This document shows, piece by piece, positions 7,625 to 12,916 of a stretch of 64,000 nucleotides of DNA. This stretch comes from Psychrobacter sp. bablab_jr014. GTDB taxonomy: Bacteria; Pseudomonadota; Gammaproteobacteria; Pseudomonadales; Moraxellaceae. The notes under the pieces are model-generated. The model searched no databases. It had not been told where the DNA came from and worked only from the letters and a program-made list of their open reading frames with translations. The stretch spans positions 62,001-126,000 of the forward strand of contig NZ_JACDXT010000001.1 of NCBI RefSeq assembly GCF_016464015.1. The letters run 5' to 3'. Numbering within the stretch: the first letter of the stretch is position 1; the number at the start of each line of letters is the position of its first letter. The translations under genes were made by a program, and so were the position numbers.

Positions 7625-8485
7625 TTAAGCCGTCACAAAATCAAGGCCAATATCCAGCGCGGTGCTGCTGTGTGTCAGATAACCCATAGCAATAAAGTCC
7701 ACGCCTGTTTTTGCGACTGCCTGCACGGTCTCAGGGGTGATGCCGCCTGATGCTTCAGTTTGGGCGCGACCTTGGCACATGGTGATGGCTTTTTTCAGCG
7801 TCTCAGGCGACATGTTGTCAAGCAGTACCAACGTTGCTCCTGCATCCAGCGCGGCGGCTAATTGCTCGAGCGTATCGACTTCTACCTCAATCGGCACAAG
7901 GTGTCCTGCATGCGCGCGCGCCTGCGTGATGGCGGTAGCAATATCGCCCACGATGGCAATGTGATTGTCTTTGATTAAAATCGCATCGTCCAAACCCATA
8001 CGATGATTGCGCCCGCCGCCGCAGCGTACGGCGTACTTTTGTAAGAGTCGCAGCCCTGGAATGGTCTTGCGCGTGCAGGTGATGTTGGCGGGATACTCAG
8101 CGACACTATCGACAATACGGCGCGTATCAGTAGCAATACCGCTCAAATGGGTCATAAAGTTCAGCGCAGTACGCTCGGCGGTGAGCAGGTGACGTGCATT
8201 GCCTTCGACCGTTGCCAGCACGGTGCCCGCCTCCACGCTTATGCCGTCGCTCACCACTGCCTGAAAATCAATCGCCTTATCGACCAATAAAAACGCCAAA
8301 CGCGCCAAGTCCAAACCGCACACCACGCCTGCTTGACGCGCGCGAATATGTAGCTTTGCCTGCATATCGGCAGGAATAGTCGCCTGCGAGGTGATGTCGC
8401 CACGACGCCCCAAATCTTCAATAAGCGCCTGCTCAACAAACGGCGTTAATATCACATCGTCCAATGCTGCTTGGGTCTGACTCAT
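7625..8485 (-). CDS. nadC: Nicotinate-nucleotide pyrophosphorylase (carboxylating)
   Basis: Converts quinolinate and PRPP to nicotinate mononucleotide, the third step of de novo NAD synthesis. Recognisable segments are RKTIPGLR, KYAVRCGGGRNHRMGL with substrate-binding basic residues, ILIKDNH, VEVEVDTLEQ and the ASGGIT phosphate-binding loop. I take ATG 8485 (286 residues) because AAGGGG stands 8 bases upstream; the frame is open to 8530 without support. A NadQ-type palindrome lies about 80-106 bases upstream of the start, so the gene is probably repressed when NAD is plentiful. No terminator is evident before the MITE. Confidence 0.96.
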   Translation of the reverse strand: MSQTQAALDDVILTPFVEQALIEDLGRRGDITSQATIPADMQAKLHIRARQAGVVCGLDLARLAFLLVDKAIDFQAVVSDGISVEAGTVLATVEGNARHLLTAERTALNFMTHLSGIATDTRRIVDSVAEYPANITCTRKTIPGLRLLQKYAVRCGGGRNHRMGLDDAILIKDNHIAIVGDIATAITQARAHAGHLVPIEVEVDTLEQLAAALDAGATLVLLDNMSPETLKKAITMCQGRAQTEASGGITPETVQAVAKTGVDFIAMGYLTHSSTALDIGLDFVTA

Positions 8486-8564: not shown

Positions 8565-8591
8565 TATTTAAACTCAAATTGAGCATAAATA
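8565..8591. promoter_or_regulatory. Putative NadQ operator upstream of nadC
   Basis: A near-perfect 27-bp palindrome: TATTTA (8565-8570), two bases, CTCAA, a central A, TTGAG, two bases, TAAATA (8586-8591). Only the two-base spacers break the symmetry. The same architecture and almost the same bases recur upstream of nadA at 9875-9901. The encoded NadQ-like regulator lies between the two sites. Repressor binding is inferred, not shown. Confidence 0.7.
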
Positions 8592-8644
8592 TAACGTACT
8601 ATGACCGCTTAGGCAAGCCTTTACATGATATACCTACTCAAGGT

Positions 8645-9658
8645 TTATTTACGTTTGGGTAATTTGCTGTCCATCAGTAGACTTTGCAATTCAATATCAT
8701 GGCAAAAACGGTACAGCTTGGCAGGGCGTCCGCGCTGGGCGCTGCTGCTTTTTCCTGTGGGCTTCACGAGGTTTTGGGTGTCTAACAGACGGCGAAAATT
8801 TTGTTTGTGTAATCGCATACCAGATAAGGCTTCAACGCTTTGTTGCAACTGCGATAAGGTAAAGACCTCAGGCATCAAGCCAAAAATCAGCGGCTGATAT
8901 TCAATCTTCGCCCGCAAACGCGAGATGGCGGTGGCAATTACGCGCCGATGGTCATAATACATGGGTGTGCCTATAATCTGTGACCACTCGGCAGGCAGTT
9001 TGCTGGGCTGATAGTTGGGCGCTTCGGGTATCAAGCCCGCCTCGTACAGCATCTCGTAACGCAGTAGCGTATGCTCTGCCGCCCAGCCGTAATCCTCATA
9101 GCGTCCTGCATGGATATCAGCGATAGCGTCGGCGCTGAGCGTATCGCCCACGCCCCAACACAAACAGATCCGCTGCTGACGGCGCTGCATGGTCGTAGCG
9201 TCATCCGCCTCATTCGCCCATGCCAGTAAGGCAGGCACAATCAGCGCGCCAATCATTTCAGGCACGCCGTCCAGATGATTTTCCCATGGAAAATAGTCGT
9301 ACCAGTCGCGCCATAAGGCTTGGCTTTGCTGGTGCACGGTTTCGCTTTCTTGTACCAAACCCAAATAACTGACATATACCAGCGCGTGCCCTTCAATATT
9401 GCGGCGGTTGGTATCCACAAAGGTATACAGCTGCTCAAGATAACCAAGCGGCTGCTGGGTTTGCTCCTCAACCCATTGGCGCACCCCTGCCTGCAAGGAG
9501 CGATGCAGCGGCATCAAAGGGCCATTGGGCAACAATTTGCCTTGGTCTACAGTCAATACGCGGGCGCTGTGCTCAGTAATGGCTATCAGTACGGCGACCA
9601 CTTCGGTCGTGCCGCTGCCTTCTTTGTGGGCATGAGAATAGGACAATGTCATAAGCAA
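8645..9658 (-). CDS. nadQ: NadQ/NrtR-like transcriptional regulator of NAD synthesis
   Basis: About 337 residues with two domains. The N-terminal part is a Nudix-like fold in which the catalytic box is degenerate (RQWVEEQTQQPLG in place of the REVxEExG pattern), suggesting ligand sensing and not hydrolysis. The C-terminal part is a winged helix-turn-helix of the NrtR type, seen in QNFRRLLDTQNLV and RGRPAKLYRF. Such proteins repress NAD genes. The position between nadC and nadA and the paired palindromes upstream of both support this job. The start may be the TTG at 9658, with AAGG about 9 bases upstream, or the ATG two codons later at 9652. The exact subfamily (NadQ or NrtR) should be checked by alignment. 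Confidence 0.8.
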   Translation of the reverse strand: MLMTLSYSHAHKEGSGTTEVVAVLIAITEHSARVLTVDQGKLLPNGPLMPLHRSLQAGVRQWVEEQTQQPLGYLEQLYTFVDTNRRNIEGHALVYVSYLGLVQESETVHQQSQALWRDWYDYFPWENHLDGVPEMIGALIVPALLAWANEADDATTMQRRQQRICLCWGVGDTLSADAIADIHAGRYEDYGWAAEHTLLRYEMLYEAGLIPEAPNYQPSKLPAEWSQIIGTPMYYDHRRVIATAISRLRAKIEYQPLIFGLMPEVFTLSQLQQSVEALSGMRLHKQNFRRLLDTQNLVKPTGKSSSAQRGRPAKLYRFCHDIELQSLLMDSKLPKRK

Positions 9659-9709
9659 TCAAAGTTACCTTAAAATCAAATGGGTTTGGAGTATTTGTAT
9701 TTATTACGG

Positions 9710-9754
9710 GCACGGCAGCTAAGGCAGATGCGTCTGCCGGCCGTGCTTACTTTT
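9710..9754. other. Strong nested hairpin in the nadQ-nadA divergent region
   Basis: GCACGGC (9710-9716) pairs with GCCGTGC (9740-9746), and inside it GGCAGA (9723-9728) pairs with TCTGCC (9733-9738) around TGCG. On the plus strand it is followed by a T-rich run (TTACTTTTT), as in a terminator. No plus-strand gene ends here. On the minus strand it would lie in the nadQ leader. It may be an orphan terminator or a leader structure. Confidence 0.5.
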
Positions 9755-9874
9755 TATAATGCTCACAAGTATAGCGTGAATGCCGTTACAGATGCTGCCC
9801 TTGTCATCATCAGATGTAGCGATTTTACAGCGCGCGTCGGTCATTAATTTATATTTGGATATAAAAACCCCTTG

Positions 9875-9901
9875 TATTTATACTCAAAAAGAGCATAATT
9901 A
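9875..9901. promoter_or_regulatory. Putative NadQ operator overlapping the nadA promoter
   Basis: TATTTA, two bases, CTCAA, A, AAGAG, two bases, then TAATTA: the same layout as the nadC site at 8565-8591, with most bases identical (shared core ACTCAAA..GAGCATAA). A possible -35 TTGTAT (9872-9877) and -10 CATAAT (9894-9899) with a 16-bp spacer overlap it, so bound repressor would block RNA polymerase. The start codon of nadA is 30 bases downstream. Confidence 0.7.
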
Positions 9902-9930: not shown

Positions 9931-11070
9931 ATGACCGACTTTCCTTATGATGCGCCCAAGCTAAGCGACAACAACAAGCGCGTACATGCGCTCGATATCG
10001 AATATGCCAAGGCAAAAATCCCTGCTGAGCTGCCACGCTCGGAGCGTCTAATTGTTGAGGCGAACATCAAACGCTTGCTCAAAGAGCACAATGCAGTGCT
10101 GGTCGCCCATTATTACGTTGACCCCTTTATCCAAGAGTTGGCGCTCGCCACAGGCGGCTGTGTGGGTGATTCGCTAGAAATGGCACGATTTGGTCAAGCG
10201 CACAGCGCACAAACCCTGATCGTCGCGGGCGTACGCTTTATGGGTGAGTCGGCAAAGATTTTAAGCATGGAAAAAACCGTGCTGATGCCTGATTTGGAAG
10301 CAGAGTGTTCACTCGATTTGGGCTGCCCTGCTGATGAGTTTGCCGCCTTTTGCGACGCACACCCTGAGCGCACCGTGGTGGTCTACGCCAACACCAGCGC
10401 GGCGGTCAAAGCACGCGCCGATTGGGTCGTGACCTCTTCGGTTGGGCTGGACATCGTGACCCACCTGCACGAGCAAGGCAAACGCATCATTTGGGGACCT
10501 GACCGTCATTTGGGCAGCTACATCGCCAAAGAAACGGGCGCGGACATGCTGCTGTGGCAAGGCTCGTGTCTGGTACACAATGAGTTTAAGGCGACTGAGC
10601 TTGAGCAATTAAAAGCCGAGCACCCTAATGCCAAAGTCTTGGTACACCCTGAGTCGCCTGACAGTGTGGTAGCGCTTGCCGATGTGGTCGGCTCAACCAG
10701 CAAGCTATTAAAAGCCACCTATGAGATGGACGTCGATACCTTTATTGTAGCCACCGACCTTGGCATCTTGCACGAGATGAAAAAACGCTCACCGCACAAG
10801 CAGTTCCTAGCCGCGCCGACTGCAGGCGAAAGCGCCAGCTGTAAGAGCTGCGCGTTTTGTCCGTGGATGGCAATGAATGGCTTACAAGCGATTGAGCAGT
10901 GTTTGTTAAATAAAAGCGGCGAAATTGTCTTAACGCCTGAGCTTGCCGAAGCCGCCAAAAAACCATTACAGCGCATGCTGGACTTTGCCCAAACCAAGCA
11001 AAAGAACGTAACGGCAAGCGGCGATATCGTCCAAGACCGCGCGCTATTTACCCATGTCGGAGCAGCCTAA
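9931..11070 (+). CDS. nadA: Quinolinate synthase
   Basis: Condenses iminoaspartate with dihydroxyacetone phosphate to give quinolinate, using a [4Fe-4S] cluster. The 379-residue length fits the longer NadA class of gamma-proteobacteria. Segments seen: [47 protein letters not shown] and the C-terminal cluster region [19 protein letters not shown] 9931 has GAGG 6 bases upstream. It is followed directly by nadB and the two form an operon under the palindromic operator at 9875-9901. Confidence 0.96.
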
Positions 11071-11071
11071 C

Positions 11072-12916
11072 ATGTCCAAGCCAACCAACACGATAGAGGC
11101 CAACACTACCGTACCTGCGATATCTGTGGACGCCATGCAACATACGGATGTGTTGATTATCGGTGCTGGTTTGGCTGGACTGAGCGCAGCATTGTCATTG
11201 CCTGAGCACCTCAACATCACCGTGCTGAGCAAATCGGCGCTGGAGGCATGTTCCAGCCACTACGCGCAAGGCGGCATCGCGGCAAGTCTGGATAAAAATG
11301 ACAGCGTACATGCGCATGTGACGGATACGCTGATTGCGGGCGCGGCATTGTGCGATGCAGACAACACGCAGCGCATCTTAAGCGCGGGGCAAACGGCGAT
11401 TGAATGGCTGTGCGCGCAAGGCGTGCCCTTTACCCAAGAGCCTATGAGCACCGATGAGACAGGCAGCAACGCGCTACACTTAACCAAAGAAGGCGGGCAT
11501 GGCTGCCGCCGTGTGGCACATGCTGAGGACGCGACTGGGCGCTACGTCATGCAGACCTTGATTGCCAAGGCGCAAGCGGCGGATAATATTACCTTATTAC
11601 CCTATCACGAAGCCTTGTCTTTACTCACCACAGACACGCCAGCGGGCACACGCTGCTGTGGGGCGCACATCTACGCCAGCGACAGTGATACGGTTATCAC
11701 CATACACAGCGCGGCGGTGATACTTGCCAGCGGCGGTTTGGGGCAGATGTTTGCGCGTGCCAGCGCCCCTGATGTGTGTGTCGGTGATGGCGTGATGATG
11801 GCATGGCAGGCAGGTTGCCGCTTGGCAAACTTGGAGTTTGTGCAGTTTCACCCCACAGGGCTTGCACTGGCGGGTAGTAGTTTTTTAATCTCCGAAGCCT
11901 TACGCGGGGAAGGCGCGCATTTATACTGCCCAAAGACAGGCAAGCGTTTTATGCTCGACTATGATGCCCGCGCTGAGCTGGCGCCGCGTGATATCGTCGC
12001 CCGCGCCATCGCGACCGAAATTCAAAACAATGGCTTAGGCTACGTGCATTTAAACATCAGCCACTTGCCCGCCGAATTTATTACCGCGCATTTCCCGCAG
12101 ATTTATCAGACGCTACTCACGCACAGCATCGACATGACGCGCGCCCCCATTCCTGTCGCGCCGACTGCGCATTATAGCTGTGGCGGTGTGGTCGCGGACG
12201 CTGATGGCATGACCGATGTGCAAGGGCTGTATGCCGCTGGGGAAGTCGCTTATACGGGGCTGCATGGCGCAAACCGTTTGGCGAGTAACTCCTTGCTCGA
12301 ATGCGTGGTCGTCGGTCGCAATATCGCCGCGCATTTGCCGCAATATCTGGCTAATCAAACGCTCTGGCAAGCACCAAGCGTGGATAATGTTTTGCCCATG
12401 GCCCTACCCGATACTGTTGTTAAGAAAAGCAAGGCTAAGAAGAACAAGGCTAAGCAAAGCAGCGACCATCAAAACACAAATACTCGCTTTACAGACAGCC
12501 ACTTGCCCAAAGCAGTCGCTGATGTAGCAGGTGCGCTTAAACCCCTGATGAGCAGCAACATGGGCATCACGCGTACAGAAGCAGGCTTACGCGAAGCCTT
12601 GCAGCAAGTGCATTCTTGGCAAAATGACGTCCAGCAAGGGATAGACAACACCTCCAACCCAAGCATATCTGAACAGATTGCTTACCAGCGTATCCAGCGG
12701 CAGCTGTCTTTAGCGGCGCTGATGCTGCAATCAGCACGGCTACGCTGTGAAAGCCGCGGCGGACACATGCGTTCAGATTTTCCAATGACCCATGATAAGG
12801 CAGCGGTCAGTGTCATTGCACCTATCGCACCAAATGTGGACAGCAGCTTGTCTTATCAACCGCTGCGACAAATAGCAGCCATGCCCGCAAGTTACGCGCT
12901 GTGTCCTGCGTGTTAA
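11072..12916 (+). CDS. nadB: L-aspartate oxidase
   Basis: A flavoprotein oxidising L-aspartate to iminoaspartate, which NadA uses at once; the pairing in one operon fits that hand-off. It has the FAD motif DVLIIGAGLAGLSAAL, SSHYAQGGIAAS, the active-site region KEGGHGCRRVAHAEDATG, PRDIVARAI, PTAHYSCGGV and GLHGANRLASNSLLE. I prefer ATG 11072, one base after the nadA stop, because GGAG lies 9 bases upstream; an earlier ATG at 11054 would overlap nadA. About 614 residues, longer than E. coli NadB (540). A lysine-rich stretch with KKSKAKKNKAKQ near residues 449-475 accounts for part of the excess and lies between the FAD/capping part and the C-terminal helical domain. Confidence 0.95.
   Translation: MSKPTNTIEANTTVPAISVDAMQHTDVLIIGAGLAGLSAALSLPEHLNITVLSKSALEACSSHYAQGGIAASLDKNDSVHAHVTDTLIAGAALCDADNTQRILSAGQTAIEWLCAQGVPFTQEPMSTDETGSNALHLTKEGGHGCRRVAHAEDATGRYVMQTLIAKAQAADNITLLPYHEALSLLTTDTPAGTRCCGAHIYASDSDTVITIHSAAVILASGGLGQMFARASAPDVCVGDGVMMAWQAGCRLANLEFVQFHPTGLALAGSSFLISEALRGEGAHLYCPKTGKRFMLDYDARAELAPRDIVARAIATEIQNNGLGYVHLNISHLPAEFITAHFPQIYQTLLTHSIDMTRAPIPVAPTAHYSCGGVVADADGMTDVQGLYAAGEVAYTGLHGANRLASNSLLECVVVGRNIAAHLPQYLANQTLWQAPSVDNVLPMALPDTVVKKSKAKKNKAKQSSDHQNTNTRFTDSHLPKAVADVAGALKPLMSSNMGITRTEAGLREALQQVHSWQNDVQQGIDNTSNPSISEQIAYQRIQRQLSLAALMLQSARLRCESRGGHMRSDFPMTHDKAAVSVIAPIAPNVDSSLSYQPLRQIAAMPASYALCPAC

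Follow-up and report, generated by a model that had tools for sequence, protein, structure and literature searches.

A predicted NadQ regulon of de novo NAD synthesis genes in Psychrobacter sp. bablab_jr014

The regulator gene and its product

Within the 64,000-nucleotide stretch of the Psychrobacter sp. bablab_jr014 genome analysed here (the window), a regulator gene is situated between nadC and nadA with a palindrome on either side of it, which raises the question of whether its product is a NadQ protein that controls these NAD genes from the two palindromes. The gene order, as determined from the open reading frames (ORFs) and family profiles, is nadC and nadQ on the minus strand followed by nadA-nadB on the plus strand. 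nadC, which encodes quinolinate phosphoribosyltransferase (7625-8485; TIGR00078, 336.4 bits against a cutoff of 198.4), was given the ATG at 8485 as its start, the ORF as listed reaching 8530. nadA encodes quinolinate synthase (9931-11070; TIGR00550, 358.8 bits, cutoff 262.9), and its end is overlapped by the start of nadB, the gene for L-aspartate oxidase (11054-12916; TIGR00551, 501 bits, cutoff 452.75). Clustering of nadQ with nadABC is a frequent trait of NadQ systems and is present here, the four genes being adjacent. For nadQ itself (8645-9652, minus strand), sequence comparison makes the ATG at 9652, common to the Psychrobacter orthologues, the most likely start; the closest named nadQ among the matches listed is that of Psychrobacter aestuarii SC35, at 91% identity.

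The product of 8645-9652 is, as judged from its sequence and predicted fold, the transcriptional regulator NadQ (COG4111). Residues 16-335 of its 337 match Agrobacterium tumefaciens NadQ (PDB 7q91) in a phmmer search with an E value of 4.7e-79, and a family profile of 22 sequences matches the A. tumefaciens protein at 5.2e-103. The AlphaFold model (mean pLDDT 71.8, pTM 0.73) matches crystal structures of A. tumefaciens NadQ whose titles name the native form, an ATP complex, an NAD complex and a DNA complex, the best match having a Z score of 28.6 and an rmsd of 3.2 over 285 residues at about 47% identity. The next structural matches are AraR and NrtR proteins (Z 14.6 to 16.8) and an Enterococcus MutT/nudix-family protein (Z 13.6), while the others, chiefly Nudix domains and hydrolases, score 9.4 and below. 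The sequence match and the fold both back the NadQ-like identity that an earlier note on this DNA had proposed.

The same note had described the protein as a degenerate Nudix domain joined to an NrtR-type winged helix, and this description was right. The Pfam family NrtR_WHD (PF21906) is matched at residues 259-318 (E 1.4e-20), and no Pfam match to NUDIX (PF00293) was found in the protein at E values up to 1. We take the stretch RQWVEEQT (residues 58-65) to be where the Nudix box would be expected, and glutamates 62-63 within it are not conserved among the 22 NadQ sequences. Structure comparison of the model supports an N-terminal domain that is Nudix-like in fold and lacks an intact Nudix hydrolase signature.

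Operators, promoters and the predicted regulon

The palindromes that the earlier note had reported upstream of nadC and at the nadA promoter are both present at the coordinates it claimed. Operator 1, predicted upstream of nadC at 8565-8591, reads TATTTAAACTCAAATTGAGCATAAATA, in which 11 of the 13 position pairs are complementary when compared by eye, and operator 2, predicted upstream of nadA-nadB at 9875-9901, reads TATTTATACTCAAAAAGAGCATAATTA, with 9 of 13 complementary; both predictions draw on the motif match and on conservation within the genus. The layout claimed for the pair (TATTTA, two bases, CTCAA, one base and then five, GCATAA) fits both sites when five bases are left free, and is one base over as written because a G was counted twice. 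Taken literally, with six free bases, it was discarded, having 0 matches in the genome. The form with five free bases is exact at both sites, and allowing up to two mismatches adds merely site 1 on the opposite strand; its reversed control gave 0 forward matches and 1 reverse.

Each operator has one mismatch to the NadQ operator consensus given in the text of Leyn et al. 2016 (PMC5343134), ttATRCTCannntGAGYATaa. Operator 1 has a perfect promoter-side half and its mismatch in the downstream half, and the mismatch of operator 2 falls in the half on the -10 side. When the genome was scanned (2,877,954 bases in 59 contigs), no further places with up to two mismatches to the consensus were found, and four had three mismatches; the order-0 expectation is 0.01, 0.25 and 3.7 places at up to one, two and three mismatches, respectively. 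The four were rejected as regulon members, since none is at a NAD gene and the reversed consensus used as a control gives 5 places at up to three mismatches (and 1 at up to two). One is next to a gene of a 3.9-kb contig, one next to an ORF that presumably encodes a protein like ribosomal protein S2, one next to an ORF presumably like LpxC, and the fourth inside what is presumably a repeat-protein ORF. The earlier note had suggested looking for the motif at other NAD genes such as nadE and nadD, and the genome scan did not extend the regulon to any of them in this genome. As delimited by this motif, the predicted regulon consists of nadA-nadB and nadC, perhaps with nadQ. In 11 congeners chosen for having the most sites (4 to 6 each), the sites with at most one mismatch are all at the nadQ locus. 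Some sites with two mismatches away from nadQ recur letter-identical in two or three Psychrobacter genomes (for example G033, G166 and G168).

Both operators coincide with promoter-like boxes. The candidate nadC promoter (8588-8616, minus strand) consists of TTGCCT (8616-8611), a 17-bp spacer and TATATT (8593-8588); it was located by a consensus scan and by conserved columns, and it overlaps the edge of operator 1. Among 58 distinct sequences upstream of nadC, CTTGC is conserved, as is TATATT at the operator edge. The candidate nadA promoter (9872-9899, plus strand) was recognized by conservation and consists of TTGTAT (9872-9877), a 16-bp spacer and CATAAT (9894-9899), boxes that score too low to pass the consensus scan. 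The 21-bp core of operator 2 takes up the spacer and reaches into the -10 box; among 59 distinct sequences upstream of nadA, CTTGTA is conserved and the operator continues into CATAAT. Promoter-like sites numbered 4 in the scan where 2.4 (sd 1.6) would be expected, a count not above chance, and therefore the promoter boxes rest on their conservation. For nadQ, a candidate -10 box is AGTATA at 9768-9773, reading TATACT on the minus strand, which is conserved at 0.97 or above in 59 aligned gaps; it is about 100 bp from operator 2, and autoregulation is therefore uncertain.

We consider it very likely that this locus is a local NadQ regulon in which the de novo NAD genes nadA-nadB and nadC are repressed sterically. 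NadQ would bind both of the similar palindromes, probably as a dimer. Bound NadQ would block RNA polymerase at nadA-nadB, where the operator takes up the interval from the -35 to the -10 box, and at nadC, where it overlaps the -10 box as well as the start region. A nucleotide held in the Nudix-like domain may tune this binding to the cell's state; the nucleotide would be ATP according to the title of the paper that calls the family ATP-responsive (Minazzato et al. 2022, J Struct Biol 214:107917), and perhaps also NAD, the PDB holding both ATP and NAD complexes of A. tumefaciens NadQ. The earlier note had suggested a regulon that responds to NAD, and the support for its reading does not extend to this choice of effector.

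Conservation of the sites and alternative readings

Within the genus, nadQ was found in 59 of 60 genomes and in all 55 of the more complete ones; the sole genome of the 60 with no match, G050, is 83% complete. From the 59 genomes and two more taken from the family-wide set 61 loci were cut, and a site with at most two mismatches is present between nadQ and nadA in 60/60 loci that have nadA in the cut, and between nadQ and nadC in 60/60 that have nadC. In G043 an IS200-type transposase gene separates nadQ from nadA, which has a perfect site at a distance of 86 bp. In G028 it is nadC that is separated from nadQ, by a TnpB-type gene, and a site with two mismatches lies 96 bp from nadC. With these two genomes included, sites are present at both nadA and nadC in 61/61 loci, so that absence of the motif from orthologous nadC and nadA promoters, which the earlier note had named as speaking against its proposal, was not seen. 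The insertions amount to a natural test of the operators: in two genomes a target has become separated from nadQ by insertion elements, and the operators stay with the targets. In G028 a DDE insertion-element gene contributes to the separation along with the TnpB-type gene (L015, L150 and L153 are the loci of G028 and G043).

Mean column conservation is 0.98 and 0.96 in the sites versus 0.52 and 0.51 elsewhere in the gaps, as calculated from 59 and 60 aligned rows with one very long nadQ-nadA gap excluded. A scan of named genomes, of which the best 80 of 145 loci were considered, included 75 Psychrobacter loci (L155-L226, L228, L231 and L234) from species largely the same as those in the genus set. 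Among these 75, a script counted sites on both sides of nadQ in 74; the remaining locus, L225, has both sites too, at coordinates that are shifted because its contig is short. An NrtR-like protein is encoded as a second regulator in two Psychrobacter genomes (L069:1453-2235 in G028 and L070 in G022, on contigs of 49 and 57 kb). The L069 protein has a recognisable NUDIX domain (PF00293, E 1.9e-12), and the ORF adjoining its gene is presumably an alpha/beta hydrolase.

Across the family, 73 of 149 genomes have some match to NadQ; in 50 of them (41 Psychrobacter, 7 Acinetobacter and 2 Moraxella) it covers most of the protein, and in 23 it is confined to the C-terminal part. A site with at most one mismatch occurs in all 50 genomes with NadQ versus 3 of the 99 without it, and the reversed pattern occurs in 1 of the 149. 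The Fisher p value for this co-occurrence, 1.7e-36, ignores shared ancestry and is too small on that account, the counts from related genomes not being independent. In two of the three exceptions (G164 and G134), a search out to about 1.5 kb from the site turned up neither nadA, nadB, nadC nor nadQ, and the third exception, G159, is 63% complete. Acinetobacter includes 18 genomes with the winged-helix match alone (31-38% identity) and 7 with NadQ, none having both, which points to NadQ and NrtR-type regulators substituting for one another in this genus. Eight of the nine NadQ loci of Acinetobacter and Moraxella (L116, L117 and L119-L124) have two sites between nadA and nadQ when up to three mismatches are allowed, spaced 34 bp apart in Acinetobacter and 31-32 bp in Moraxella, or about three helix turns; the ninth, L118, has one site between nadA and nadQ and one before nadC. 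The earlier note had proposed that NadQ acts at the two palindromes, and this gains support from the fit to the published motif, the co-occurrence of site and gene, and the persistence of the sites beside nadA and nadC despite insertion elements, from which we infer binding by the window's own NadQ.

Other readings of the locus have to be weighed against this one. Were the regulator an NrtR, which responds to ADP-ribose and has a recognisable Nudix domain, its winged-helix domain would be of the kind found here, and the predicted fold does match Shewanella NrtR at a Z score of 16.4. However, the NCBIfam NrtR model NF050029 gives the protein 59.9 bits where its cutoff is 400, through the C-terminal part alone, the protein has no Pfam NUDIX match whereas the NrtR-type protein of a congener does, and the match to NadQ is far stronger than that to NrtR; we regard this identity as very improbable. 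The palindromes might also serve a different factor, or be no more than promoter structures, and flank nadQ by chance; they do overlap promoter-like boxes, which would themselves be expected to be conserved. Against this, an independently published NadQ consensus fits both palindromes, their occurrence follows that of nadQ from genus to genus, and conservation of the 21-bp core reaches beyond the promoter hexamers, which leaves such a coincidence hardly credible. That NadQ might activate, rather than repress, one of the two promoters has a slim chance of being correct: operators in a spacer and over a -10 box and start region are where repression usually takes place, and NadQ is counted among the repressors of NAD genes in the introduction to PMC12421817. 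The reading that we retain is one in which NadQ would repress both promoters from the two palindromes.

The nadC operator and comparison with known systems

The two operators differ in how they depart from the consensus. In the 75 Psychrobacter loci among the best 80 of 145, with the sites taken by position, the promoter-side half of the nadC operator is perfect in 74 and the downstream half has at least one mismatch in 74, an identical 21-mer being present in 55. The nadA operator has the full consensus in 61 of the same 75 loci. Counter to a simple reading of this lopsidedness, the nadA operator of the window is itself one mismatch off the consensus. The lopsidedness may set a weaker repression of nadC, or it may reflect only constraints on the nadC start region. 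A speculative and rather unlikely extension is that selection keeps the nadC operator lopsided in such a way that NadQ would shut nadA-nadB before nadC, and quinolinate salvage through NadC would stay open while de novo synthesis is off. No report of a lopsided operator was found in the literature, which was searched for NadQ generally rather than for this point, and the genus-wide lopsided nadC operator is a mildly new detail. A study of NadQ in Psychrobacter was likewise not found in the literature searched, outside which lie most subscription journals and supplements.

Leyn et al. 2016 (PMC5343134), whose main text does not name Psychrobacter, describe there predicted NadQ regulons in seven lineages of Proteobacteria, with nadQ clustered with nadABC. 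The Psychrobacter locus has both the operator consensus and the nadABC clustering in common with the regulons described in that text, and differs from them in that the motif does not extend the regulon to nadE or nadD in this genome. Compared by sequence and fold, the regulator resembles A. tumefaciens NadQ (PDB 7q91-7q94) over nearly its whole length and in its Nudix-like and winged-helix fold, and the structural alignment puts their identity at about 47%. With Shewanella oneidensis NrtR (PDB 3gz5, 3gz6) it shares the C-terminal DNA-binding domain and the overall layout, but Psychrobacter NadQ lacks the recognisable Nudix domain of S. oneidensis NrtR. The locus is an ordinary, well conserved instance of the NadQ system already described, with the regulon intact throughout the sampled Psychrobacter genomes, and it leaves the known picture of NAD regulation unchanged.
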